Positions 8,372 through 48,753 of a DNA stretch of 48,753 nt are shown here, piece by piece. Location: positions 1-48,753 of the IMG/VR virus record IMGVR_UViG_3300025276_000049; one strand, given 5' to 3'. Both the position numbers and the translations under genes were made by a program. How positions within the stretch are numbered: position 1 is the first letter of the stretch; the number at the start of each line of letters is the position of its first letter. Below the pieces are notes generated by a model. The model was not told the DNA's origin. It searched no databases and worked only from the letters and a program-made list of their open reading frames with translations. This stretch comes from a virus.

Positions 8372-10456
8372 TTAGAACGATCCACCATCGATGGTATCAA
8401 TCGTTACTAGTCCACCCGAAGAAACATCAAAGTTAGTAGCATTGTACGTACTCGTACCAATACCACCTGCGGCATCAGCTACATTAGCTTTTACAGTTAC
8501 GGCAGAAGTTTCTGATCCTGATCCAGTTATAACAATACCGTTTGAAGTAGTACTGTTATTGTCTGTCTGTCCACCAGTACCTTGAACAACAGTAGCAATG
8601 TAATTGCCGGTGGTATCAGTACCAAGAGCAACAGAGTTTGCCTGAATCGTAACAGCCATGCTGTGGTTAGTAGTACCCATGTCAGACATGTTGATAGTAC
8701 CAGCTACATCACCAGTTAGTGCAAACGACTTCTGTGCGAAGTTGATTGTATCTACGTTTACATGTGCTAGGCTGAAAGAAGCATGACTTCTATCAATAAC
8801 ATTATCTTCAACGTCTGAATCTATGTACTCATCAAAAATGTAGAATTCGTTATCGGTTGCATCTCTAATGATACCAGCTAATTTATCAGCACCATCATTG
8901 AATCTACCTATGAAACCAATATCGACTGCATCTGATGTGTTGCCATTAGCAAGTCTGATCATTGCATCTTCGACATCTAACGTATCGACATTAACAACAG
9001 TTCTAGTGCCGTTGACTGTCAAGTTACCGCCGACAATCATATTGCCAGCCATTTCGACATTACCCGATGAGGCTGCTACTGTGAAGTTTCCTCCACCGAC
9101 ATCTAGATTACCAACAACTGTTAGATCGTGTCCGATGTTAGTGTCACCACCTGCAACTCCGCCTGTACCAATTCCGATATTAGTACCTGCACCAAATGCA
9201 TTAATTGTAGTAGCATTAGTGTTGAGTAGATTGAAAGTAGTTTGGTTAGTAGTTACATCACCACCTTTGACTAGTAAGTCTCCAGTAAATATTGTGTCTC
9301 CACCAACGTTTAAGTTTTCAGCGATACCTACACCACCGGCAACTGTTAATGCGCCTGTCGTGTTACTAGTTGAAGTTGTCGTTTGTAGTAATCTTTGCGA
9401 TACGATGTCTAACTGAGAGACTTCTACTGCGGCATTATTAGCGGCATTACTTGCATAGAAGTGTAGAACGTCATCAGAAGCGGCAGGAGATGATTCAGCG
9501 AGAATGAATGTAAACCCGTCAACTGATCTTACTCCACCTAAAGACGACCAGTTCGATCCAGTGTATCCTTCGAACTGTGTGTTATTTGTGTTAAAGCGAA
9601 TTGCTCCAGTCGTATTCGGTGCTCGTTGAGCATTAGTACCAGAAGGAATAACTAATGCATTAGTTCCAGTGACTGTGACATATCCAGTACCAACTGGATC
9701 TAATACAATATTGCCATTAGTATTAGTTGAAGATATAGTATTAGCATCAACACGAATATTGTCTACATTCAATTGACCTGTTACAGTAGCTACGCCAGTA
9801 AGTTGTGTGGCTGAGGTTGCTGTGAATGTCGTACCGTCATATGTTAAGTTGCTACTGTCTTCGATTGCGCCAGATGTGCCAGCGATTACAATGCGATTAT
9901 TAGTAAGGTCACTGACTATTGCAGAAGCTAGTGTTGTCTCGCCTGCAACGCCTAACGTGCCTGCGATTGTTGTATTACCAGTACCGTCTCCTGCTACTGT
10001 GAACTTATCCGTATCAACAGCAATACCGCCGTTGGCATTTACCAACCCAAGTAATTGTGTCGTAGATGAGAACTCTACTGGTCCATCTAGTTGAATTTTA
10101 CCAGTACCAACGGGATCGATTATGATATTACCGTTAGTGTTTGTGGAGCTTATGGTGTTTAGATTGAGCGTTAGATTGTCAACATTAAGAATATCGATCT
10201 TATTGTTGGCATCTGTAATGATAGCTGAGGATGCAGTAAGTGTTCCAAGTGCATGATCTAGTTTTGAGGTAAAGTACTTACCACCAATAATATCAATTGC
10301 GTTTGCAACGCCACCTGATTCTCCACTTGTACCTAAGTAAAGTCTATCACCGCCATTTGCTTGTGTTCCAGTGCCGTATGTGTAACCGAATTCGCCTAAT
10401 GCGAGTGCGCTTGGTGCGGCAACACCACTGGATCTTTTGATCTTGATTATAGACAT
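8372..10456 (-). CDS. Long beta-rich fibre structural protein (694 aa)
   Basis: Starts with a phage fibre leader (MSIIKIKRS, then LALGEFGYTYG and DRLYLGTSGE). Two copies of ISSTNTNGNI(I/V) with DPVGTG lie near residues 105 and 245, showing internal duplication. Residues about 289-312 (TGAIRFNTNNTQFEGYTG then WSSLGG) are a common marine-phage fibre module. NLTVNGTRTVVNV with LDVEDAMIRLANG near 475-500 is shared with the 1454-residue adhesin. The last 100 residues are Ser/Thr/Gly-rich. GGAGG lies 10 bases before the ATG and a perfect late promoter box lies 27 bases upstream. A fibre shaft component is the likely role; there is no lectin-like tip in this chain, so binding may belong to another gene. 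Confidence 0.8.
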   Translation of the reverse strand: MSIIKIKRSSGVAAPSALALGEFGYTYGTGTQANGGDRLYLGTSGESGGVANAIDIIGGKYFTSKLDHALGTLTASSAIITDANNKIDILNVDNLTLNLNTISSTNTNGNIIIDPVGTGKIQLDGPVEFSSTTQLLGLVNANGGIAVDTDKFTVAGDGTGNTTIAGTLGVAGETTLASAIVSDLTNNRIVIAGTSGAIEDSSNLTYDGTTFTATSATQLTGVATVTGQLNVDNIRVDANTISSTNTNGNIVLDPVGTGYVTVTGTNALVIPSGTNAQRAPNTTGAIRFNTNNTQFEGYTGSNWSSLGGVRSVDGFTFILAESSPAASDDVLHFYASNAANNAAVEVSQLDIVSQRLLQTTTSTSNTTGALTVAGGVGIAENLNVGGDTIFTGDLLVKGGDVTTNQTTFNLLNTNATTINAFGAGTNIGIGTGGVAGGDTNIGHDLTVVGNLDVGGGNFTVAASSGNVEMAGNMIVGGNLTVNGTRTVVNVDTLDVEDAMIRLANGNTSDAVDIGFIGRFNDGADKLAGIIRDATDNEFYIFDEYIDSDVEDNVIDRSHASFSLAHVNVDTINFAQKSFALTGDVAGTINMSDMGTTNHSMAVTIQANSVALGTDTTGNYIATVVQGTGGQTDNNSTTSNGIVITGSGSETSAVTVKANVADAAGGIGTSTYNATNFDVSSGGLVTIDTIDGGSF

Positions 10457-10684
10457 TTAAAAGTTGCCTCCGTTTATAGTTGTATTTATATTTTCCACTT
10501 GTGTGGTAGCTACCCATTTTGCTGTCGTAGCGTTATACACAATAACTGCTCCATCAGTCTGACCTGTGGCGTCAACATTAAATAGATCACCTAATCTAAT
10601 AGTGGCAGCGTTAATTTGATAATTAGTAACCAGAAGATTCTGGTTAGGTGTTAATTTTGCTTTTATATTCTGATTAATCGGCAT
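10457..10684 (-). CDS. Small virion protein (75 aa), unknown
   Basis: A short protein directly abutting the 694-residue fibre gene (zero-base gap). It begins MPINQNIKAKLTPNQ and has a DGAVIVYNATTAKWVATT segment resembling the 'value plus display' modules in phage fibre proteins. Polar, no membrane segment, no catalytic motif. The late promoter of the next gene lies inside its coding sequence. A fibre-associated accessory protein is the best guess. Confidence 0.7.
   Translation of the reverse strand: MPINQNIKAKLTPNQNLLVTNYQINAATIRLGDLFNVDATGQTDGAVIVYNATTAKWVATTQVENINTTINGGNF
10483..10490 (-). promoter_or_regulatory. T4-type late promoter box (TATAAATA), intragenic
   Basis: A perfect 8/8 late box on the minus strand, inside the 75-residue gene and 27 bases before the ATG of the 694-residue fibre gene. 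The spacing matches the intergenic late boxes, so it could give the fibre gene its own late transcript. Confidence 0.55.
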
Positions 10685-10688
10685 ATCA

Positions 10689-11021
10689 TTAAACCCTTGT
10701 CATACCAGGAGTTACAGTAGACGTGCCTTGTACAACACGTGTGACTGCCCCACCAGCGGAAGTTATTTCGATATCATATAAGTATCTGCCCGGTTCTAAG
10801 GCAGTAGTTACAGTCTTAGTCAAAGTCATTGATATCTGTCCTAATGCTCCGTTATGCGAACAACCGAATGTCGTTGCACTACTCGAGGCGTAATTTTTTC
10901 TCATCTGACCCGCCACTGAATAACCCGTTAGGTCATATACAGTGTTTGTTGACGTTGATACATCAACAAGAGCAGAGAAATCGGTCCCTTGATCGATTAT
11001 AATATTTGCTTTAATTGCCAT
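10689..11021 (-). CDS. Small beta-sandwich virion protein (110 aa)
   Basis: The pattern is DQGTDFSALVDV, YDLTGYSVAGQMRKNYASS, ISMTLTKTVTTALEPGRYLYDIEI and TRVVQGTSTVTPGMTR. It matches a small protein type common beside fibre genes in T4-like marine phages and other tailed phages; the fold appears Ig-like or baseplate-upper-protein-like. First gene of the leftward unit driven by the palindromic promoter at 11048-11059; AGGGA lies 6 bases before its ATG. Its function is unknown; a structural or fibre-anchoring role is inferred. Confidence 0.75.
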   Translation of the reverse strand: MAIKANIIIDQGTDFSALVDVSTSTNTVYDLTGYSVAGQMRKNYASSSATTFGCSHNGALGQISMTLTKTVTTALEPGRYLYDIEITSAGGAVTRVVQGTSTVTPGMTRV

Positions 11022-11047
11022 GTTTTTTCCCTAGTCTATGCTACATG

Positions 11048-11059
11048 TATTTATAAATA
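11048..11059. promoter_or_regulatory. Palindromic bidirectional late promoter TATTTATAAATA
   Basis: These 12 bases are a perfect palindrome in which the late box TATAAATA occurs on both strands: 11052-11059 on plus and 11048-11055 on minus. They lie between divergent genes starting at 11021 (minus) and 11095 (plus). One core may therefore serve both directions, although two polymerases could hardly occupy it together. Confidence 0.75.
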
Positions 11060-11094
11060 ATGATAACGACCCATTTAACAACACTGGATTCAAA

Positions 11095-13428
11095 ATGTCA
11101 ACAAAATACCTAAAGTTCGGTCTGAGAGCAGACAAAAATTTAAAGGATCTAACCAATCCCGATTCCGCCCTATCTAATGTGCTTGATAATATATCGGCAG
11201 CACTAGACGAAAATGGTGCGGCTAGTGGCTTCACTGTAGACGATATATCCGCTACAAAAGGGCTTAGAAACACTGGACTAGCAGACAGCGTGAACGCTGA
11301 TGGACAATCAACTGACTTAGCCGCATTGAACGATAGTTTAGTCACGTTTACCTCTCTTGCTAATACTACATTAGAGATTCAGCCTAGGCGAACTCTACAA
11401 GATAATATCAGTAACTTCAAATCTGTCTTAGGCAATCCGCCCTGGATAGAAGGCGGTGATGGACCTATAGCACGTTTCGTTCCTTCTGATCGAATCAAAG
11501 CTACCCCAACTGCCGCAACGACTGGTGGATCAACTACGAGTGCTATAGCCTCTCTAGGAAATAATTTATTTTCAACAGCTTTAAATCAAGATTATGTTGA
11601 TATGATTTTTCCTGTTGACTTCTGGAACGACGGAGTTTTCGAATTCTCCGCTAAACTACATCCTTCTCTTCCTAACACTTACGGTCTTATTCAGTGGACT
11701 GGATATCTGTCTGGTGTCTATAATCAAATATGGGACTCTACTGGTCTATTTATCATAGAAGAAGATGTCGTTGATGCCTCCGGTTCTGATAACTTTACCA
11801 CTGTTAAAAGTATTTATGCGAATAGTGTTGCGATGACCAGTCTAAGTATGTCGAATGATGGCACTAATACTACTATAAACTTGGCTTCTGGAGTTTCTGG
11901 TGGTGTGGCTATCAAAGCAACATATGTATGTAAGGAAATGCTAGTTAATGGTAATGCAAGTTATGTAGTACAATCTGTGGATACCGTTAACAAAACCTGT
12001 GTAGTTTCTGGTGTAATAACTGGAACCAGTGCAACATTCTCATTTACGCTGGGTCAAACAATAATTGAAACTCCTATCGTATTCACTCCTCAAAAATTAG
12101 GCAACAGACTGAAAGTGAGATACACACTTTGGTATCCAGATCCAGGTAATAACACGAACTATAGAACTAAGCGTTTTGGTGAAGCTACTAATAATAGTCA
12201 GAGACTGCCATTTAATTTCCTTTACTCAACATTCGATAGGAATCAAGTATTTGGTCCATACACATACAAATATTTCGATGACAATAAAGCGGGCGCTTTG
12301 AATCAGACATCATCTTTTCCTATTAGAGTGAATAACACACTATCAGCTCCTTATATTCCACCGACACTTCTTAGTAATAAGCTTGTGTCTGTGTCCGGTA
12401 GTGCCACTACGGTTACTATGAAGACTGTAACCGTCTCAGATACTTTTGGTAAAATTTCTGCCGCTAACTGGACTGGCTGTAAAGTAGGAGATTGGATAGT
12501 ATTCGAGAAAGCGACAAATGTGTACTACACTTATCAGATACTACAGATAGATGGTGTTAACGCCTATGTAAAGGATACAATAGAAACTGACTCTAGTACT
12601 GCTGTAGCTGGCACGTTTAGTGCTATGATATGGAAGAATGAAGGTTTATTGGGACTCTATAGACTGAGTTCTAGCCAAGCAACGACTGGATCATTGTTTC
12701 AGATAGCTGGTGCTCCAGTTTCGCCCAACAGAGTTTATGGAGATCATCTACTTTTCGGCATGGAACCTAACGGTAGTGCCGGCACTCAAGCAATGCGGGT
12801 GTTATCGTCCACAATAGTTAGTGCAACTCAGAATAACATTACTGTTCAGGATTACTTAAGTAATAGCACTTCATTGAACAGCGGTAATAGTATAGCCGCA
12901 ATCTATGCTAGTAGAGGCTTAGAAGATAAGTCTGTTGTTCTTCAGTGTGGAGGAGTGTATGGTAAAGAAGTAGCTAGTACAAGTGCTTCAGGAGCTACGC
13001 TCGTAACTCTAACCAGTGTTGATGGTATAGCGACTGGTCATTATGCTCAGTATGCTGGATCAATAGCAACCGGAGTAACAGTTACTGCCATCAATGTGGC
13101 CACTAAAACAATCACGCTCAGTTCAGCTTTAACTGCTCCATTAAATGCGGCAGCGACAGTGGTCTTCATATCCAGTAATCCTGGCTCAGTGAATAAAGAG
13201 TTCTGTATTATTCCTCTGAACACTGCACCGCCATTTGCTGGTACAGCCTTGGGTCTTGCTACGCCACCCTCTAAGGCTAATTTAGAAGTTGAGGGGTTAT
13301 CTTTTGGATCTCTAACATTGACTGTACCGAGTGGTAACATATCAGCGATTTCTGCGCCAACGACTGCTGCCAAATATTTCCCGATATCTTATGGGGGAAC
13401 TAGTTACAAGGTATTAGTAAAAGATTAA
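11095..13428 (+). CDS. Large virion structural protein on the opposite strand (777 aa)
   Basis: The longest frame opens at 11038, but that start would place the late promoter box inside the gene. ATG 11095 (MSTKYLKFGLRADKNL) is preferred because it follows the promoter and gives the N-terminus typical of cyanophage-type virion proteins. Residues 1-130 are polar (NVLDNISAALDENG, LQDNISNFKSVLGNPPW). The middle and C-terminus are beta-rich with repeated strand-turn patterns and end in TAAKYFPISYGGTSYKVLV, like the C-terminus of the convergent neighbour. It is the only complete plus-strand gene in the window. Its stop codon and that of the convergent 319-residue gene share the palindrome TTAA. 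The role in the virion (fibre or baseplate-peripheral) is inferred. The Shine-Dalgarno match is weak. Confidence 0.8.
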   Translation: MSTKYLKFGLRADKNLKDLTNPDSALSNVLDNISAALDENGAASGFTVDDISATKGLRNTGLADSVNADGQSTDLAALNDSLVTFTSLANTTLEIQPRRTLQDNISNFKSVLGNPPWIEGGDGPIARFVPSDRIKATPTAATTGGSTTSAIASLGNNLFSTALNQDYVDMIFPVDFWNDGVFEFSAKLHPSLPNTYGLIQWTGYLSGVYNQIWDSTGLFIIEEDVVDASGSDNFTTVKSIYANSVAMTSLSMSNDGTNTTINLASGVSGGVAIKATYVCKEMLVNGNASYVVQSVDTVNKTCVVSGVITGTSATFSFTLGQTIIETPIVFTPQKLGNRLKVRYTLWYPDPGNNTNYRTKRFGEATNNSQRLPFNFLYSTFDRNQVFGPYTYKYFDDNKAGALNQTSSFPIRVNNTLSAPYIPPTLLSNKLVSVSGSATTVTMKTVTVSDTFGKISAANWTGCKVGDWIVFEKATNVYYTYQILQIDGVNAYVKDTIETDSSTAVAGTFSAMIWKNEGLLGLYRLSSSQATTGSLFQIAGAPVSPNRVYGDHLLFGMEPNGSAGTQAMRVLSSTIVSATQNNITVQDYLSNSTSLNSGNSIAAIYASRGLEDKSVVLQCGGVYGKEVASTSASGATLVTLTSVDGIATGHYAQYAGSIATGVTVTAINVATKTITLSSALTAPLNAAATVVFISSNPGSVNKEFCIIPLNTAPPFAGTALGLATPPSKANLEVEGLSFGSLTLTVPSGNISAISAPTTAAKYFPISYGGTSYKVLVKD

Positions 13429-14394: not shown

Positions 14395-16899
14395 TTATAC
14401 TAGAATAGTCCAGAAGTTTTCCAAAAAGCTCAACTTATTAGCTGTGCTATTGTCTCCGTCTGTACCGTCGTTGATTATAGAATCTCTAGTAAGTCCAGTT
14501 GTGGAATTACCTAGCAAGTTGACTGAAACGCCACTTCTAGGATTCAACGTGTAGTTCTCGAATAGATCACTGATTATTTTTGGTCCAGTTGCGGACGATA
14601 GGCTGTTGTTACTTAAGTCTATAATAGATATAGTCGTATTATACCGTAAGCTTCCTTCTATATAACCAGAAATGCTATTGTTATTTAGATATAGCTGTCG
14701 AAGTCTAGTGCAACCAGATAGATCAGGAACATTTCCCGTTAATGAGTTATAATGTAACTGTAGTTCATACAAGAATGGAGTAGTTAGTTTTGGCACTTGT
14801 CCAGCAAAGCCATTAGAATACATGAATATGTATTGAAGTCCGTTTCCAGTGAATGCAGGTACACTACCTGAGAAGTTGTTATTGCTCAGTCTTAAATAGT
14901 ACAAAGAAGGATTAACCGAGAAAGATGTAATACTTCCAGTTAAGCCAGTGCCGTGTAGATATAGACCGGATAGGGCGCTACAGTTACCAAAGTCTGGAAG
15001 ATCGCCTGTTGTGCCCGTAGCACTATAGACATAGACCCATCTCAGGTCTGTTAATAATTTAAACACTTCTCCATTACCGCTATTATTATCTTTAGAGTCT
15101 TGTGTGCCAAAGAAGTCTGCGCCTGCTATAGAACCACCAGCAAATCTTATGTGCTGTAGTGCTGTAGTATTAGTGAAGCTAACATCGTCTAATCTTCCCG
15201 TGACTCCAGTATGCCTTAGTTCTAAAGTGGTGAGAGAAGGTAGGCTCTGGAATACAGTAGGGTTCGATGTCATATTAACTTCAACATTAGATGCGTAGCA
15301 ATATAATTGAGATAGTGAAGAACATCCAACGACTTTACCAACAATCGATCTCTTTCCAGATGGAAGACTTGAGTATGCATGTATGTAATTACTCAGTGAT
15401 GCTTTACTAGACAAGTCAACGAAATTATGTCCGTTACCGTAAGATATGAATTCTCCCAAGTTAGTTGCATTAGGAATAGTTATATCACCGCCACCTTGCT
15501 TTGCGACTATGCCACACCAAGGGAAGTACAAATATGTTAAATTAGGACTGTTGCATACACCCGTAGCTAGTTGCGTGAACGGCTGATTGTATAGCCGATA
15601 TTGCGATACACCTTTGGTACCGCTGGCAAAAGTCTGAGGCGATATAACGCCTCCTGTCATCCGTCTCTGGGCATTACGTGAGTAGTATGATCCCATATCT
15701 AAATATGTTAATTCTGTATAGTCTAATAAATCAATCGCAGTAGAATCGCTGAATACGCCAGACATGGTGATACTTGTAAGCGTTGTAGGAAGAGTGTTCA
15801 ACTGATGAGTTGCGACTATCTGATTATTACTAGCATCCACTGCTCTTGAGAGGTTATTAGAAGATATGTTTAAAGTCTCAAGAATTGGAGCTAGGTTACC
15901 AGGAGTTAAAGCCCCATCTTTACTACTAGCATTACCTCTAAAGCTTGGAAGCACGTATAGATCATTATTCGATATGTCCAATCGCCTTAGTGCTGGTAAT
16001 GAGGATGTTGTCCATTCTGTTAAGTTGATGGCTGCAGTTCTTAGTTCCAGAATATTTGCTGGGTTGTAATAGAATTGTACAGTCCTCGATCTAGCAGAAC
16101 TATCTCTAAAGTAATATGCGGCAGGACTACCAAGTGTGCCTGCTCCAAGACCACCAGGATTAGCTGTAGTGTTATCGCCCGAGTTATAATTCTGTCCGTT
16201 GTCGTTGTTAATTATTCTCCAAGTAGGAGGTACTACAGAATTTGCTACTCCAGAATTTGGATGTGTATCTGTGACTGAGTTTACTGCATGATATAGGTCT
16301 GCGTTACGAAAGAACCCTGTGAGTTCCATCGGTATACCCTTCATTGCCAAAACTGTCTGGTTTGTACCATTAAATGCTATAGTGACAGTATGCGTGGGAA
16401 CTTCTGATCTGAATAATTTAGCAACAGGCGCATTAGATGTCGATAAGGACGATAGCTGGATCTTATTACCCGTTACTTTGACCTCACCTCCATACATAAT
16501 AGATGAGCCTATTGTAGACCAAGATGACACACGTGATGTTGATATGTCAGCACTCTTCACAGTATTTGTTGCGAAATCTAAAAAGTTGTACTTGATTGCC
16601 GCTGCCCTTATTTGAGCATCGTATTCTAAGTTAAACTGTAGGGGCTGTTGGATGTCTCTAAAGTTTACTAGTATTCCAGCAATTCCTTCAGATGATTCAC
16701 CTAAAGAATATAATTGCTTCTTCTGATCTTCTACTAATCCCGCTAGTGTGTGTAATTCATTTGTCGTAACACCAACAGCTTTGAGACCGCTTATTATCTT
16801 CAAGTCTCTCTGATCTAGACCTAAATTGATGAGTGCTTCTGACTTACTGTCAACATCGTTCGCCGCTTTCTGTACGTTTAAGCCTCTAAAAATAGCCAT
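14395..16899 (-). CDS. Leucine-rich-repeat virion protein (834 aa)
   Basis: Residues 1-300 form a phage-type N-terminal region (FRGLNVQKAANDVDSKSEAL, then LQFNLEYDAQIRAAAIKYNF). From about 305 to 790 there are irregular leucine-rich repeats: LRRLDISNNDLYVLP, LETLNISSNNLS, LTYLDMGSYYS, LYYLRLSNNNFSGSVP, LYELQLHYNSLTGNVPDLSG, LRQLYLNNNSISGYI and IIDLSNNSLSS. The LxxLxLxxNxxxG(x)(I/V)P form recalls the plant/receptor-type subclass. Solenoids of this kind usually bind proteins or glycans, so a receptor-binding role is plausible. The ATG overlaps the preceding stop (TAATG). The gene lies among fibre genes and has no secretion signal, so it is most likely a virion component and not a secreted factor. 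Confidence 0.85.
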   Translation of the reverse strand: MAIFRGLNVQKAANDVDSKSEALINLGLDQRDLKIISGLKAVGVTTNELHTLAGLVEDQKKQLYSLGESSEGIAGILVNFRDIQQPLQFNLEYDAQIRAAAIKYNFLDFATNTVKSADISTSRVSSWSTIGSSIMYGGEVKVTGNKIQLSSLSTSNAPVAKLFRSEVPTHTVTIAFNGTNQTVLAMKGIPMELTGFFRNADLYHAVNSVTDTHPNSGVANSVVPPTWRIINNDNGQNYNSGDNTTANPGGLGAGTLGSPAAYYFRDSSARSRTVQFYYNPANILELRTAAINLTEWTTSSLPALRRLDISNNDLYVLPSFRGNASSKDGALTPGNLAPILETLNISSNNLSRAVDASNNQIVATHQLNTLPTTLTSITMSGVFSDSTAIDLLDYTELTYLDMGSYYSRNAQRRMTGGVISPQTFASGTKGVSQYRLYNQPFTQLATGVCNSPNLTYLYFPWCGIVAKQGGGDITIPNATNLGEFISYGNGHNFVDLSSKASLSNYIHAYSSLPSGKRSIVGKVVGCSSLSQLYCYASNVEVNMTSNPTVFQSLPSLTTLELRHTGVTGRLDDVSFTNTTALQHIRFAGGSIAGADFFGTQDSKDNNSGNGEVFKLLTDLRWVYVYSATGTTGDLPDFGNCSALSGLYLHGTGLTGSITSFSVNPSLYYLRLSNNNFSGSVPAFTGNGLQYIFMYSNGFAGQVPKLTTPFLYELQLHYNSLTGNVPDLSGCTRLRQLYLNNNSISGYIEGSLRYNTTISIIDLSNNSLSSATGPKIISDLFENYTLNPRSGVSVNLLGNSTTGLTRDSIINDGTDGDNSTANKLSFLENFWTILV

Positions 16900-36951: not shown

Positions 36952-39675
36952 TTAAGTTCCTATCTGTGTTGTAATTGCGTCGGTCGTGGTGGTGTCAAGA
37001 GTTATGACTGTACTTACGAGTCCGTTATTAGCTTCAGTAGTCAAGTTCTGTGTACCCTCTTCGTTCGTCAACTGTATCTCAGTGATATCCCAAACTTGAA
37101 ACTCTACATCTAGCGTTGAAGATAAATTACTATTAGTATTTATGAGAGGGGAACTGAACAGTTTTGTACCAGCTACACCCACAACATTATCAATTAGAGG
37201 AGTATACTTTGCTGGATCAACAATAGATCCAATGTCATACGAGTACTCTTGATAGTAATGATTGTCATGTATCTTTCTATTAACTTCGCTTAAGAATGAA
37301 CTAGTAGTCTTCCACTTACCTTCGCTTAAGCCAGGTCCTAATGTTCTTAGTGTAGCTGTAGCAACAACTGCATCTGTAGTGTTGAGTAAGTTAACAACCT
37401 CATTGTCTTCGTATCTAAAGCCTGTGTTGCGTACTTCTATTGTGTCTATCTGACCAGTTTGGTAACTAGCAATGCCTGATACATCAGCATTAGCTCCCAT
37501 AGCTTTAGATGTCATGTCTTTACGAACTTCTGTTATAGTATATAGCTGACCTCTAATATTGACTTGCCTGGTCACATCAAAGTTATGGAAACTCAATAGC
37601 TTAAAGAAGAAGTTATTACCACTTCTCTTAATAAACTTAGCACGGACAGTGTAGTCAATACCAGCGGCAACTTGATATGTAGGGTCTTCTACAACGATAG
37701 CAGACGTTACGATCTCACCAACTTCTAGCAAGAAGTCAACATTAGCGAATGTTACAATAGGATTTCTCTTATCGAACTTGACTACATCAAGATAACTTAA
37801 TTCACTGAATACGTCATTCTGATATGCATTACCAGATGATGTTATATTAATGTTATCTATAGAGCCAATAGTAACTGTAAGAGGAGTAAATGCGTCTTTG
37901 AATTTAGTTCTTAATGTTTCACTATTAGGACCACTCATGCCATAGTTAGTAGCTGTTACATCTATACATGTACCGTTACCACCAGCAGCCGCACTAATAG
38001 CAACGAACTCAGAACCTATTGCGTATGTTACGCTTGAAGTGCCAGCGGCAGTATTCCATTGTGCTTGAGTAGTAGTGCCTAGTGTCTCTATCTGATAGAC
38101 TCTTGGGTTAGACATAGCGGTTGCATTCACAGTAACTTGTAGAGGCTTCTGTTCGAAGTCTCCAATAATGTCTGTGATGATACTCACTGTCTCACGATCT
38201 GTTGCAGATATCTCCTCAACTTCAAAAACTGCTGAAGAGTTAAACGTTCCTACAGAAACACTATTAATAGTAGTAGTACCAATAATCACATCAGCTTGAC
38301 CATTAGTAGGCAATGCTGTAAAGTCGTATCCTATGCCAGCAGAGTATAGAGCGGGAAGTAATTTAGTATTGATCCATGTAGCCTGTGCTGTCGTGATGCT
38401 TCCGCCATTTTTGTATGTATTGAATATACCTACATCCGTAGAAGTAATATGATTCAAGGAAGCCGCCACGTAGCCACTATTAGTAATGTCACCTAATCTG
38501 AAACCAGTTGCTAAGTCTTTTGTGTTGAATACAGTAGCTATGTCAGCATCCGCAGACGTATTGAAGCCAGACTCTAAAGCGAGTTGATCATACACATATG
38601 TTAAGTATGTTGCCTTAGTTCTATTTACTGTAGAGATATACACAAGGGGGTGAACGTATCCAACGACTCGCCCGCCACCTGTCATATTATCTGGCGATGA
38701 ATCGAATGCTACGCCATTAATAGGCGATACTACAGAAGAATTGTTCTCTGCATATACTGGATCACCAACTTTAATAGTAGGCGTTAATGATTGCTGTAAT
38801 ACAACAACTTGATTCGATATGTTAATCTCTGTTTGTGGACCAGTGAGTGCGGGTAGAATGTATCCATATCCGCTATCTTTAATCTCGAATTCGATAAGAC
38901 CTGTGCTAAGTGTAGAGACTGCTTGTACTTGTGCAGTACCACTAATCCCTGTTCTCAGTGATTGAAGCTTGACTATATCACCCACGGTCTGACCAGGTAG
39001 TCTTGTTCCCTTAGTCACTGATATCTTATTGATAGAACCTTGTACTAGCTTGCCATAGTTAATAGCGGATGTTACACCACGTGTGACTAGAATACCATCA
39101 TCGCTTGTGAATGTACCTGATAGATTAGACAGATATACAATAGGTACTAATGAGCCCGTGAAGTTAACAAAGATGACTTCATCTACGAAGCCTATAGCAC
39201 CCGATATATCACCTGCGATTTTGTCACCACGTGTGATAGGATAGCCAATGACTGTGTGAATACTCTGCATCTCTAGATACGTAGCACCGCCCCATACTGA
39301 ATCAGAAGGCTTTAATACGTTAGTACTGGGATAGAATATTTCAATCTCTGTATCATAGAACAATTGAAAGAGCAAGCGTAATGATTCTTCAGAACCTTTT
39401 CTCTTGTATAAGTCCTGAATATGTTTTATAATAAACTTAGTATCTACAATCGTATCAAGTGGTAACTCATGGAGAAACTTCTTCTTATAGAATACAAGAA
39501 AGTTAGCTAGAGTGGAATCGATATCACGTAGCTTAAACAAGTCACGATCCATCTTGGCATCGTTAAACTCATAGTAAAGCTTAGTGAATTCAACAAGCGT
39601 AGAACCCTCTTCCCTATACAGAGAAGGATACTGCTCTTCGATGAATGTCGAAATATTACTTGAAACGTTCAGCAT
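36952..39675 (-). CDS. 7: Baseplate wedge protein gp7 homologue (907 aa)
   Basis: Residues 1-130 carry the conserved opening of marine gp7 proteins: FIEEQYPSLYREEGSTLVEF, LFKLRDIDSTLANF, KKKFLHELPLD and IQDLYKRKGSEESLRLLFQL. T4 gp7 has 1032 residues and is the central wedge organiser binding gp10, gp8 and gp6. Residues about 527-570 contain an inserted module (IETLGTTTQAQWNTAAG...AIGSEFVA) also present in the beta-helix protein at 24298-27249. The C-terminal 250 residues (NRKIHDNHYYQEYSYDIGS) match the usual gp7 end in marine T4-like phages. It lies 6 bases after gp6 in the T4 order. Confidence 0.9.
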   Translation of the reverse strand: MLNVSSNISTFIEEQYPSLYREEGSTLVEFTKLYYEFNDAKMDRDLFKLRDIDSTLANFLVFYKKKFLHELPLDTIVDTKFIIKHIQDLYKRKGSEESLRLLFQLFYDTEIEIFYPSTNVLKPSDSVWGGATYLEMQSIHTVIGYPITRGDKIAGDISGAIGFVDEVIFVNFTGSLVPIVYLSNLSGTFTSDDGILVTRGVTSAINYGKLVQGSINKISVTKGTRLPGQTVGDIVKLQSLRTGISGTAQVQAVSTLSTGLIEFEIKDSGYGYILPALTGPQTEINISNQVVVLQQSLTPTIKVGDPVYAENNSSVVSPINGVAFDSSPDNMTGGGRVVGYVHPLVYISTVNRTKATYLTYVYDQLALESGFNTSADADIATVFNTKDLATGFRLGDITNSGYVAASLNHITSTDVGIFNTYKNGGSITTAQATWINTKLLPALYSAGIGYDFTALPTNGQADVIIGTTTINSVSVGTFNSSAVFEVEEISATDRETVSIITDIIGDFEQKPLQVTVNATAMSNPRVYQIETLGTTTQAQWNTAAGTSSVTYAIGSEFVAISAAAGGNGTCIDVTATNYGMSGPNSETLRTKFKDAFTPLTVTIGSIDNINITSSGNAYQNDVFSELSYLDVVKFDKRNPIVTFANVDFLLEVGEIVTSAIVVEDPTYQVAAGIDYTVRAKFIKRSGNNFFFKLLSFHNFDVTRQVNIRGQLYTITEVRKDMTSKAMGANADVSGIASYQTGQIDTIEVRNTGFRYEDNEVVNLLNTTDAVVATATLRTLGPGLSEGKWKTTSSFLSEVNRKIHDNHYYQEYSYDIGSIVDPAKYTPLIDNVVGVAGTKLFSSPLINTNSNLSSTLDVEFQVWDITEIQLTNEEGTQNLTTEANNGLVSTVITLDTTTTDAITTQIGT

Positions 39676-39681
39676 GTAATT

Positions 39682-41439
39682 TTATTCCGTCAATTGAGTT
39701 ACGTTAACTGTGATGTCTTGATTACGTATAGAGATAATTCTATCCTTAGGCGCCTTAACATCTTTGTTAACTGTATTAGCTGTGAACTTAATAGCATCAC
39801 CTTCGTATGAATCAACAATAAGATTTGACATCTTAATAGCACCTGTTGTATAATCAACTGTACCCATCTTAATCTTGAAGACTCGTTCGCTCGTACCACT
39901 TGCTGTAACAGCCATGATAGCACCTTTACCATCGTCTTGTAACGTAACGACAGTACCCTCTAGAGTAAAGAGAGTAGTTTTGAATGCGGGTGTAAATGCT
40001 GTAAAGCCTGTAATACTATCGAATGCGTATGGCTTAACAAGTGCGCCCTCAAAAGAGAACGATTGATTCTGTACAATAGCAAGTGTAGGCTTAATCTCAA
40101 TGATAGGCTGTGCAAAGATATCACTTGATACTATAGACGTATCTACACCATCAAGAGTAGCCGCTAAACGAGACTGTCGCAATGTCTTATTAAAGTCATT
40201 TAGATTAGTGGTCTGATACGATATGATCTTAGCAATAACTTCTGTCTTAATCTGTGCCGCTGATTTAGATGTTGTGTTAGCATCGTAAACTATATTCACT
40301 AAAGTGTTGACATGCAAGAACTTAGCTGATACAAAGACAGGCTCAATAGTCAATGGAGTCTTATCCTTTAAGTACTCTCTGAAGTCAGCGATCTCGAAGT
40401 CTGCCGCTCCCTGACCACCAGTAACATCTACTGAGATGATGACCTTACCAAACTGAGGTGGATCTACTTCATCACCACCATATACTGATATAGCTTGAAT
40501 AGAAGGAAACTTATTACGTAGTAGTATCTCGTAGTCACTCTTTGTTACAGCACGATCTTGTACCTGTAATGCCTTAGGTGCAAACGAACGAATACTCTCA
40601 ATGCTTTCATTGTAAAAGCCGCCAGTAGAGGCGATGGTAACAACAGCAGATATGCTTGACGCACCCCCTAGATTCTGTGCTATAGTGAATGATGATACAC
40701 CATTCGCTTCTTCACCATTACATATTCTGTAACGTGCTAAGATAGTGTCTGCTGATGTTGGCTGGGCTCCAAATTTATTTTCACCGAACTGTAATGAATA
40801 CTTGCCATCTACTTCTGCTTGCATATAGAATACTTTATCAGTCGCTCTCACACCAAAGATGTCTGCTTTCTGTATGTACTCTACACCATTTACTGTGACA
40901 TATAAAGAACTAGTGTCTATGAATGAGTTAGAGATAACTGTGTCAGCTATAGGCAATGTCTCTGTAATAAGACGTCCTTGAAATGCTTTCATGCCTGTGA
41001 TATTAAATACGTTTGTATTGCCTACACGTGTAGCTATATTAGCTTTGTCTGTGAGGAATGTAAACGTTGTACTACCACACTTTCCTGTCATCGATGTATT
41101 AGCGGGTATGGTAAAGTAGTTTGAATCTTGGGCAGATGTGATGTTAAGTGTTACAGTAGCTACAGATGATCTACGTGAACGAGGCAGATAGTTTAATTCT
41201 TTTGCGTGTGACATAATGCTATTACGATCTTGTGCAGAGTCAAGGAACATCTCGCTCAATGCCATGTTGTAATAGTAGTTGTTATAGAATGTATTGTATG
41301 CTAGTAAGTCTAGTAGCACATTCATGTTCGAACCATCGAAGTCGTAGTCAGCAAACCTATCCTGATTCTTAAGGAAAGTCTTAAGTTCTTCCTTTGTTGC
41401 GAAGAAGTCTAGATTAGTTACTGGTGATATATTAGCCAT
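39682..41439 (-). CDS. 6: Baseplate wedge protein gp6 homologue (585 aa)
   Basis: The N-terminal block (DFFATKEELKTFLKNQDRF, DYDFDGSNMNVLLDLLAYNT, MFLDSAQDRNSIMSHAKELN, YLPRSRRSSVATV) is diagnostic of T4 gp6 in its marine form, corresponding to the gpJ-like fold shared with phage Mu and P2. FAPKALQVQDRAVTKSDYE near 290 is the conserved core motif. T4 gp6 has 660 residues; six heterotrimers with gp7 form the inner ring around the hub. It follows gp25 with no gap. A possible late box (CATAAATA) lies 48 bases before the ATG inside gp25. Confidence 0.95.
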   Translation of the reverse strand: MANISPVTNLDFFATKEELKTFLKNQDRFADYDFDGSNMNVLLDLLAYNTFYNNYYYNMALSEMFLDSAQDRNSIMSHAKELNYLPRSRRSSVATVTLNITSAQDSNYFTIPANTSMTGKCGSTTFTFLTDKANIATRVGNTNVFNITGMKAFQGRLITETLPIADTVISNSFIDTSSLYVTVNGVEYIQKADIFGVRATDKVFYMQAEVDGKYSLQFGENKFGAQPTSADTILARYRICNGEEANGVSSFTIAQNLGGASSISAVVTIASTGGFYNESIESIRSFAPKALQVQDRAVTKSDYEILLRNKFPSIQAISVYGGDEVDPPQFGKVIISVDVTGGQGAADFEIADFREYLKDKTPLTIEPVFVSAKFLHVNTLVNIVYDANTTSKSAAQIKTEVIAKIISYQTTNLNDFNKTLRQSRLAATLDGVDTSIVSSDIFAQPIIEIKPTLAIVQNQSFSFEGALVKPYAFDSITGFTAFTPAFKTTLFTLEGTVVTLQDDGKGAIMAVTASGTSERVFKIKMGTVDYTTGAIKMSNLIVDSYEGDAIKFTANTVNKDVKAPKDRIISIRNQDITVNVTQLTE

Positions 41440-41892: not shown

Positions 41893-43572
41893 TTATACAA
41901 TGTTACGAAGTTGGTCACGATCATGTCGTGCCGCTAACGCTATCATTCCGCTTAGGTGTGACTTAGGAACTGGGTAGTTTGATTTGTTATTAGGCTCGCC
42001 TGCAACCCAACTTACTCTACCTGGTCGTGTATCACCATGTATGAATGAACTGTATATGCCTATAGCAGTAAAGCCTGCACGACTCATAGCTACAACAACT
42101 GATGCTCTGTCTTCATATGATCCTTTTACCTTAATGTCAATGGCTTTGCCTGTCATGTGCTGTGATGTACTAGCACCCCCTTGTTCTTTATTATAGACAG
42201 GTGATCTATAACCAGAGTTGACAATGAATTCTTTTCCTGTTTGTTCACATACTCGTAGTAGCTTAATCAGTACTAGCTGATCTATCTTCTTCCAACCAGC
42301 TCCCTTAAGCTTCTTGCCCTCGTAGTCATTCTGATTCTTTACTTGTGATGCGAATGTAAACTTGCCTGGTATGCCATCTTCTGTTAATGCTGAAATAGTT
42401 TTAAGTTCTTCTTGACTTGCTTGGGCAGGTGTGATATAATTACTCTGTTCGCCTTTAACTATGGACGTAAGCTTAGGTGAGCTTGCATTGATCTGCTTCT
42501 CTGCTTCTGCTTTCTTTGCTATTCTGTCTTCCGCACCAATACGTATTGCACCATTCTTTACAGCTTTCTCTGTCTCTTTTAGTCCCATGCTTGTCAATAC
42601 TTTGTTCTCTATAGCTATAGACGTTGCAAGGTTCTTTAGGTTATCTACTGATGAGTTCAACAAGCCTTCAATCACTTCAGACATCTGACAGAATCGGAAC
42701 ATCATTAATGCAACATTCTCTACAGTAAGTCTTTCGAACTGCCCTGCTGTCTTAGCCATAAACGCTTCGATCTTCTTCTTAAACTCTTCCATACTATCAG
42801 CTTCGAACAGTTCATTGATATCATCAGATATCTCTTGTATTTTCTTATAGACCATTTGACTGGCACCTGCTATGTTACCTAATGTAGCAACAGTAGCGGC
42901 AACAACCTGCCGAACACGCTTCTTCAATTGTTCTACTACCTTATCAACGATCTCTAGAATCTTGTCCTTAATCTTCTTTAAAATTTCGTTTAAAGTCAAT
43001 GACTTAAGCTTCTTAAGAGGATCTTTCTCGGATAGATTCTTGATGTCACCTATAAGATCAGTCGCTACATCGATCAGTACGAACAAGGCAGCGAGTTGAG
43101 AGAAGAAGTTATTGAATGATCCACATATTCCACCAGAGATTGACGCACCAAAGTTCTTATTGAGGTAGTAATCTAAGTCGCCTAAGTAAGAATCGATAGG
43201 TACTGGCATGACTGGAGAGGGTACATAGTCTTTAATATCAGTGTTTAAGTTGCCAATGTCATAGCTATTCGTATTAATGAAGTCAGCTATCTCTACAAAC
43301 GTTACTGGTCCTTGATCATATCGATCTTTGAGTGTAGGGAAATTGGTTAAATCTGATAAGTCAAGTATATTATTAGTTAAATTTGTTACATCTACGAGAG
43401 TCTGTCTGTTAAGTCCTACACCACCATTGAGTCCTGTGCCGTCATTAATACCAGTAAGGTTAGCTATGAGTGTTGAGTCTAGTATAGCACCAAAATCTGA
43501 ACTGTCAAGTCTTAATATTGAGGGATCATATCTAGATGCTAACGGTGTAATGTTCTCGCAATGTGAAGTCAT
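41893..43572 (-). CDS. Baseplate hub-associated protein with C-terminal M15 peptidase (559 aa)
   Basis: Residues about 435-535 form a Peptidase_M15 (M15_3) domain: FIVNSGYRSPVYN, then SQHMTGKAIDI with H472 and D479, and FIHGDTR with H512. These are the expected zinc ligands SxHxxGxAxD...HxD of D,D-carboxy- or L,D-endopeptidases that cut peptidoglycan cross-links. Residues 1-150 are polar. Residues 150-350 are helical, with a hydrophobic stretch (FFSQLAALFVLIDVATDLIG) and Lys/Glu coiled-coil segments (LKKIKDKILEIVDKVVEQLK). It lies between gp5 and gp25, so it is probably a virion lysin carried in the hub. The helical part could alternatively be a hub or tape-measure-like element. It has a weak Shine-Dalgarno and only a weak late box upstream. 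Confidence 0.87.
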   Translation of the reverse strand: MTSHCENITPLASRYDPSILRLDSSDFGAILDSTLIANLTGINDGTGLNGGVGLNRQTLVDVTNLTNNILDLSDLTNFPTLKDRYDQGPVTFVEIADFINTNSYDIGNLNTDIKDYVPSPVMPVPIDSYLGDLDYYLNKNFGASISGGICGSFNNFFSQLAALFVLIDVATDLIGDIKNLSEKDPLKKLKSLTLNEILKKIKDKILEIVDKVVEQLKKRVRQVVAATVATLGNIAGASQMVYKKIQEISDDINELFEADSMEEFKKKIEAFMAKTAGQFERLTVENVALMMFRFCQMSEVIEGLLNSSVDNLKNLATSIAIENKVLTSMGLKETEKAVKNGAIRIGAEDRIAKKAEAEKQINASSPKLTSIVKGEQSNYITPAQASQEELKTISALTEDGIPGKFTFASQVKNQNDYEGKKLKGAGWKKIDQLVLIKLLRVCEQTGKEFIVNSGYRSPVYNKEQGGASTSQHMTGKAIDIKVKGSYEDRASVVVAMSRAGFTAIGIYSSFIHGDTRPGRVSWVAGEPNNKSNYPVPKSHLSGMIALAARHDRDQLRNIV

Positions 43573-47248: not shown

Positions 47249-48276
47249 TATTGTGCTCCTCCTTGATTTGCGCCAATGACTGCGCCATTAGCGTCCCTAT
47301 TTGAAGTATCTGGAGCACTTTCACCAGCTTGCACCTCTGGAGCATTGCCTGTGTCTACTACTATTTGCTTTGGCACATAATCTGATTTGGTGTGTATAGA
47401 TGCCTCTGTCATAGTCATCGTTAATCGAACAGCACTTGGCTTACCACCTCTATTTAATGCTATACCGTTAGGAGTATAATCAACATTAAACTGACTGATC
47501 ATAGCAGTCTTCATCTGGAAGAAGTACCTGCTGTCAATACCATGAAAGAAGCAATCTACCATAGATGGATATCTTAATAGACCACGCTCGAATGTGTCAC
47601 CTACATTACCAACTCCTAATCCAGAAACTTCTGGTGTTATATGGTGCTGAATAGTTTCTATTATTTGTCTTAATGTCTCTGCTTCCTGTGGGGTATCTGG
47701 TGATAATAGCCATTCGAATGAGTGTGTCTTAAGATCAACACCACTGAATACTAATGTTGCGAATGGATTTACAGCAGTACCTACTCCAGCTCCTAAACCT
47801 TTTGTAATATCAGGTGCAATAGCGCCTAGACCTGCACGTGCCATGAATAATGCGATATCAGATGCAGTACCGACCGCATTTGACATTGAGTCCATTGAGG
47901 ATATCGCACTATCATTAACTTGCGAAACTGATGAGTCGAACATCTTCTTCATTTTTTCGCCTAGATCATTAGCACCTTTTAGCTCGGCAATGCCTTTAGA
48001 ACTCCCAGCCGCTAATGATCCAGTTATTCCTAGTTCGTCTGCACCTACTTTTATATTTAAATTATCTTGTAGCGTCTTTGGTAGAGGTAATACTATACTG
48101 CTCTGAGACATCAGTGAAGCATGAGATGAATTTCCATACGTGTATTCTTTAAAGTTAAATATCATAGCATGATGACCAATTGTATGCGGAAAAGTCAGCG
48201 GTGAGTTATTCCGTTTACTCGCCCGTTGTGCAATCACTGTGGATGCTGGTGTAATTTTTCCGGTGTTGGATGACAT
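47248..48276 (-). CDS. Baseplate-tail tube cap protein, gp48/gp54 family (342 aa)
   Basis: N-terminal half: TFPHTIGHHAMIFNFKEYTY and SSIVLPLPKTLQDNLNIKVG, typical of tail-tube-like cap proteins. A Gly/Ala-rich middle (LGAGVGTAVNPFATLVFSGV) is followed by LKTHSFEWLLSPDTPQEAET, LRQIIETIQHHITPE and FFHGIDSRYFFQMKTAMISQ, the conserved core of gp48 and gp54, which are related proteins that cap the hub and start tube assembly. Length fits both (T4: 364 and 320). No second member is found in this window, so gp48 or gp54 cannot be decided. AAAGG lies 9 bases before the ATG, and a perfect late box lies 42 bases upstream. Confidence 0.8.
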   Translation of the reverse strand: MSSNTGKITPASTVIAQRASKRNNSPLTFPHTIGHHAMIFNFKEYTYGNSSHASLMSQSSIVLPLPKTLQDNLNIKVGADELGITGSLAAGSSKGIAELKGANDLGEKMKKMFDSSVSQVNDSAISSMDSMSNAVGTASDIALFMARAGLGAIAPDITKGLGAGVGTAVNPFATLVFSGVDLKTHSFEWLLSPDTPQEAETLRQIIETIQHHITPEVSGLGVGNVGDTFERGLLRYPSMVDCFFHGIDSRYFFQMKTAMISQFNVDYTPNGIALNRGGKPSAVRLTMTMTEASIHTKSDYVPKQIVVDTGNAPEVQAGESAPDTSNRDANGAVIGANQGGAQ

Positions 48277-48289
48277 GGTTTTGAACCTT

Positions 48290-48297
48290 TATAAATA
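48290..48297 (+). promoter_or_regulatory. T4-type late promoter box (TATAAATA), rightward
   Basis: A perfect 8/8 box on the plus strand, 56 bases before the TTG start of gene 4. It faces the leftward box at 48318-48325, so the two promoters of this divergent pair overlap and point at each other. Confidence 0.7.
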
Positions 48298-48317
48298 TTA
48301 AGTTAGACAACTACAAT

Positions 48318-48325
48318 TATTTATA
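48318..48325 (-). promoter_or_regulatory. T4-type late promoter box (TATAAATA), leftward
   Basis: A perfect 8/8 box on the minus strand, 42 bases before the tube-cap ATG. Probably drives the gp48/54-gp53-gp27-gp5 unit. Confidence 0.75.
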
Positions 48326-48352
48326 TGAGTTGAGTTAGAGGAGATTTGACAA

Positions 48353-48753
48353 TTGGCATTTAAAACACACAAGGGAAAGTTTAATCCCCTTAATCCTCAG
48401 AAGTATATAGGTGATCCTACTGGTATCATTTACAGAAGTGGGTGGGAATTTAAACTAATGCGATATCTTGACAAGCATCCGCACGTATTACGTTGGTCAA
48501 GCGAAGAAGTTGTCATACCATACAAGAGTCCTATCGATGGGAAATGGCACAGATACTTTCCAGACTTCTATGTGGAACAGATAAATAGAAGTAAGAGAAA
48601 AGAAAAGGTGCTGATTGAAGTCAAACCTAAGTATCAGACCATGCCACCAGTGGTCAAGACAGGCAAGAGAAATCAGACCAAACGGTATATAAATGAAGTT
48701 AAGACTTGGGGCGTTAATCAAGCGAAGTGGGCAGCCGCGGCAGAGTTCTGTAA
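48353..48753 (+). CDS. 4: Head completion nuclease gp4 homologue (C-terminus cut by window edge)
   Basis: Starts at TTG 48353: an in-frame TGA lies six bases upstream and no ATG precedes the conserved region, while GAGGAG lies 9 bases before the TTG. The translation (AFKTHKGKFNPLNPQKYIGD, RSGWEFKLMRYLDKHP, WSSEEVVIPYKSP, RYFPDFYVE, IEVKPKYQTMPP, TKRYINEVKTWGVNQAKW) is a clear match to T4 gp4. E32, D71 and E89-x-K91 form a PD-(D/E)xK/TnsA-like nuclease signature, in line with reports that gp4 of T4-like phages is a nuclease needed for morphogenesis. T4 gp4 has 150 residues, so about 16 are probably missing past the window. It is divergent from the tube-cap gene, whereas in T4 gene 4 runs in the same direction as gene 53. 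Confidence 0.93.
   Translation, partial: MAFKTHKGKFNPLNPQKYIGDPTGIIYRSGWEFKLMRYLDKHPHVLRWSSEEVVIPYKSPIDGKWHRYFPDFYVEQINRSKRKEKVLIEVKPKYQTMPPVVKTGKRNQTKRYINEVKTWGVNQAKWAAAAEFC

Follow-up and report, generated by a model that had tools for sequence, protein, structure and literature searches.

The palindrome and its neighbours

The DNA analysed here, referred to as the window, is a virus record of 48,753 bases from a T4-like tailed phage. Its gp25-like and gp53-like proteins matched above the Pfam cut-off, and its gp8-like and tail-cap-like proteins matched below it. Two further proteins were seen in passing: an 834-aa leucine-rich-repeat protein (PF12799, E 1.6e-13), encoded amid the tail genes at 14395-16899, and a 559-aa protein at 41893-43572 that matched PHROG peptidase and endolysin families. 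A gap of 73 bp (11022-11094), with a minus-strand ORF on one side and a plus-strand ORF on the other, holds the element described here. The features around it are:

10457-10684, minus strand: gene for a 75-aa protein, next in the leftward operon (PHROG match, 13853)
10483-10490, minus strand: additional late box within the leftward operon, followed after 26 bp by the gene for a 694-aa protein (8372-10456)
10689-11021, minus strand: gene for a 110-aa protein (PHROG match, 1084 / 3304, L-shaped tail fibre protein assembly)
11048-11059: perfect 12-bp palindrome TATTTATAAATA, its own reverse complement, single copy in the window
11048-11055, minus strand: T4-type late box TATAAATA of the leftward operon, predicted start 11042
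11052-11059, plus strand: T4-type late box TATAAATA of the rightward gene, predicted start 11065
11095-13428, plus strand: gene for a 777-aa protein, function not assigned, conserved divergent partner (homologue alignment)

The self-complementary stretch at 11048-11059, with a late box on both strands and a 4-base overlap between them, had been pointed out in an earlier note and is confirmed by the sequence; both boxes are exact. The minus box lies 26 bp from the start of its gene (11021), and the plus box lies 35 bp from the ATG at 11095. In 100 dinucleotide shuffles of the window, the mean number of TATTTATAAATA copies was 0.01. The 8-mer TATAAATA occurs 7 times in the window, against 4.6 expected. 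Because the box alone is not rare, the palindrome and its conservation form the informative part of the observation, and it is the conservation described below, not the rarity of the 8-mer, that rules out a chance origin.

The ATG at 11095 was taken as the conserved start of the 777-aa ORF because its homologues align from residue 1. An in-frame ATG further upstream, at 11038, would place the start beyond the palindrome and is not the conserved one. The earlier note had called the rightward ORF a virion gene. This assignment found no backing, as the protein had no Pfam match at E 0.1, no PHROG match and no tblastn match in the phage collection. One of eight homologues matched phrog_15769 (function unknown). 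An AlphaFold prediction from an eight-sequence alignment of the family gave a fold of low confidence (mean pLDDT 53, pTM 0.33).

Two traits of T4-type late promoters are present at the gap, namely an exact box on both strands and a position of each box shortly upstream of a gene. The T4 late box is placed at -13 to -6 (PMC1524935). With this placement, the predicted starts are 11065 on the plus strand and 11042 on the minus strand, both of them A and 23 bp apart; each differs by one base from those proposed earlier (11066 and 11041). Of the 90 TATAAATA sites in 12 group contigs, 53 were correctly oriented and stood 10-70 bp ahead of an ORF start, a zone that makes up about 2% of contig sequence. 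Eight control AT words of the same composition fell in this zone in 0-34% of cases, so part of the enrichment reflects general AT-richness. A binomial value for this enrichment was discounted, since it takes related contigs to be independent. A homologue of gp55 is encoded on one of the palindrome-bearing contigs (G009), with 42% identity to T4 gp55 (E 5.5e-23). Against a gp55-dependent promoter, no gp55 match was found on the 48.8-kb window fragment, and only 1 of 11 group contigs, which may be incomplete, gave one.

Conservation of the two boxes among relatives

Searching IMG/VR with the 110-aa protein gave 68 loci, of which 65 were readable; L027, L045 and L062 were left out of the box count, their upstream DNA being too short. 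The close relatives come from IMG/VR only, as a DNA-level search of the phage collection with the gap and the right gene returned no match. Both boxes were present in 10 of the 65 loci of the leftward gene (L002-L011). Nine of these carry the exact 12-mer, and one (L007; G006 37609-37622) carries a 14-bp palindrome, TATTTATATAAATA, which occurs once in its 63-kb contig. In this longer form the boxes overlap by 2 bases instead of 4, and both full boxes are kept.

A homologue of the 777-aa protein was the divergent neighbour in L003-L010, as judged by ORF calls, and in L011, where the first codons were read at the contig edge. L070, a locus found via the 777-aa protein, likewise has the 12-mer. 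The earlier note had proposed that a single site holds two divergent late boxes and had looked to related phages for both. They were kept wherever a relative showed the homologous divergent gene, which bears the proposal out. The other 55 loci of the leftward gene, each inspected over 120 bp, lacked an exact second box. The upstream ORF is codirectional in 53 of them and divergent but non-homologous in two (L017 and L050). These two loci, without a second box despite a divergent upstream ORF, are a point against bidirectional function. So is L002 (5774-6000), where the palindrome is kept and the upstream gene is a codirectional ORF of 1059 aa. We read this ORF as a recent replacement of the divergent gene, and the locus offers a natural test case for the decay of the second arm.

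When 10 gaps were aligned without indels, the palindrome was invariant in every one of its 12 columns. The alignment comprised eight distinct sequences, since L009 equals L010 and L006 equals L070; it was built without L007, for its 14-bp form, and L002, for its lack of a divergent gene, and the L005 row stops one base before the start codon. Mean pairwise identity in this alignment was 0.53 on the side of the divergent gene and 0.80 on that of the 110-aa gene. The homologues of the 777-aa protein among the relatives are only 28-54% identical to it, in a protein alignment made up without L005, L010 and L011, so the conservation of the palindrome is not a mere matter of recency.

This pattern bears on two simpler accounts of the palindrome. 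The site might be a one-directional promoter of the leftward operon, its left arm (TATT) being a coincidence or relic and the 777-aa gene having its promoter elsewhere. The unremarkable frequency of TATAAATA in the window agrees with such an account, and so does the left arm retained in L002 without a divergent gene. However, that arm is invariant across the 10 gaps, an exact second box is missing from all 55 other loci, and L007 retains both boxes in a shifted register; we regard this account as improbable. The other account takes the perfect 12-bp dyad as the operator of a dimeric DNA-binding protein, with a fortuitous overlap of the late box. Each half of the dyad, however, is the late box itself, and the 2-bp change of half-site spacing in L007 would disturb a fixed dimer. 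Moreover, T4-like phages have the identical element between late genes of other, non-homologous pairs. An operator is the least probable of the readings considered here. The invariant left arm, the 55 loci without a second box, the shift in L007 and the non-homologous gene pairs led us to reject both the relic and the operator.

Proposed function in two directions

The palindrome is a real and conserved element that very probably functions in both directions. We favour a bidirectional T4-type late promoter, with a probability of roughly 0.87. In the late phase of infection, gp55-bearing host RNA polymerase would recognise TATAAATA in either orientation. RNA starting near 11065 would run rightward into the 777-aa gene, and RNA starting near 11042 would run leftward into the tail-fibre-assembly operon. 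Two promoters would thus be packed into the 73-bp gap. The gp55 open complex melts from -12 to +2 (PMC7892883). Since both open complexes would require this same DNA, they should exclude each other, and each firing would go in one direction. The analysis shows the sequence, its conservation, its association with a divergent neighbour and a gp55 gene in one relative; that both transcripts are made, and that they exclude each other, is what we infer.

From the symmetric core, the earlier note had gone on to suggest that two virion proteins might be made in a fixed ratio. The same core does stand on both strands, and shared DNA predicts mutual exclusion, as set out for sigma-70 promoters (PMC12825309). 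However, the A+T content of the flanks is unequal: in the 8 loci compared, 6-7 of the 8 positions from -5 to +3 are A or T towards the divergent gene, against 4-6 of 8 in the opposite direction. The leaders also differ, and the rightward product is not a known virion component. With asymmetric flanks and a further late box in the leftward operon (10483-10490), the symmetric core does not imply a fixed ratio. This part of the earlier proposal was dropped as very unlikely. For comparison, five bidirectional promoters of E. coli showed little competition when tested at basal activity (PMC12825309).

More speculatively, the symmetric late promoter might act as a switch that reads replication polarity, an idea we consider doubtful at present. 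At a symmetric core, the orientation of the sliding clamp alone could decide which gene fires, and this orientation would follow the direction in which the fork or nick travels. A neutral reader of polarity would account for the recurrence of the 12-mer at this gap, at the gap between genes 26 and 51, and before gene 53.

Precedent in T4-like phages and comparison with host promoters

The bidirectional late promoter favoured here is already known in kind, and the window adds a fresh example. The T4 genome (AF158101) contains the identical TATTTATAAATA exactly once, at 116450-116461, in the 50-bp gap between the divergent baseplate genes 26 and 51. An old GenBank record (M77695.1) annotates overlapping TATA boxes for both genes, so the novelty implied by the earlier note does not hold. 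The T4 locus differs from that of the window in its gene pair, and the group of the window includes a 14-bp version (L007). In the open papers searched, as far as titles, abstract openings and passages go, we found nothing on symmetric or overlapping divergent T4 late promoters. A study by Scarlato and colleagues in Virology in 1989, entitled 'Bacteriophage T4 late gene expression: overlapping promoters direct divergent transcription of the base plate gene cluster', reportedly provides the experimental basis of the T4 precedent. As T4 has the same element, the choice of direction, mutual exclusion and dependence on clamp orientation can be tested in the purified T4 late-transcription system.

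The 26/51 gap was surveyed in T4 and 12 other genomes, out of 30 listed and 1339 matching. The 12-mer was present in 10 of these 13 T4-like phages, down to 34% gp51 identity. It was altered in KFS-EC and 50AhydR13PP. In phi1_146002, whose upstream gene at the 26/51 locus is codirectional, it was absent. Two phages, KpV477 and Muldoon, carry it a second time ahead of gene 53, again in a divergent gap. A count across 48 records (5.39 Mb) gave 23 copies of the 12-mer and 2 of a reversed control palindrome. Of the 23 copies, 22 are flanked by divergent genes or ORFs, the exception being L002; the flanks of one of them, in EP02SG, are unannotated and were inferred from its relatives. The 12-mer is not universal, since it was absent from 13 of the 14 records of one survey, including RB49, KVP40, S-PM2 and P-SSM2. 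A more distant phage (L076; G020 40641-40652) has it between divergent ORFs, with a rightward ORF of 350 aa about 45 bp downstream. The late-promoter palindrome between divergent genes is therefore not the curiosity of one contig. It recurs among T4-like phages at several gene pairs, two of which show strong conservation of it.

Divergent late genes are also served by another arrangement, as seen in a second divergent gap of the window:

48276-48353: divergent gap between a tail-cap-like gene and a rightward gene that, by our reading, presumably resembles gp4
48290-48297, plus strand: late box
48318-48325, minus strand: late box, facing the first without overlap

The same face-to-face boxes occur in three other contigs of the group (G001, G005 and G009). 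The short divergent gap of T4 genes 4 and 53 likewise has two separate facing late boxes; in Muldoon and KpV477 the gap before gene 53 has the 12-mer. Since facing separate boxes also occur, overlapping boxes represent one of at least two solutions.

A comparable design is found in bacterial hosts. In E. coli and Salmonella, bidirectional sigma-70 promoters owe their divergent starts to the symmetry of the -10 element (PMC12825309, PMC10268837). Such promoters have been defined by divergent starts 7-25 bp apart and overlapping -10 elements (PMC10268837); in the window the corresponding elements on the two strands share 4 bp. The 23-bp spacing predicted for the window is among the common distances of sigma-70 bidirectional promoters (PMC12825309). 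The likeness lies in the symmetry, and the machinery differs: the E. coli and Salmonella promoters combine sigma-70 with -35 elements, whereas the promoter proposed for the window would combine a gp55-type box, no -35 element and a sliding-clamp activator.
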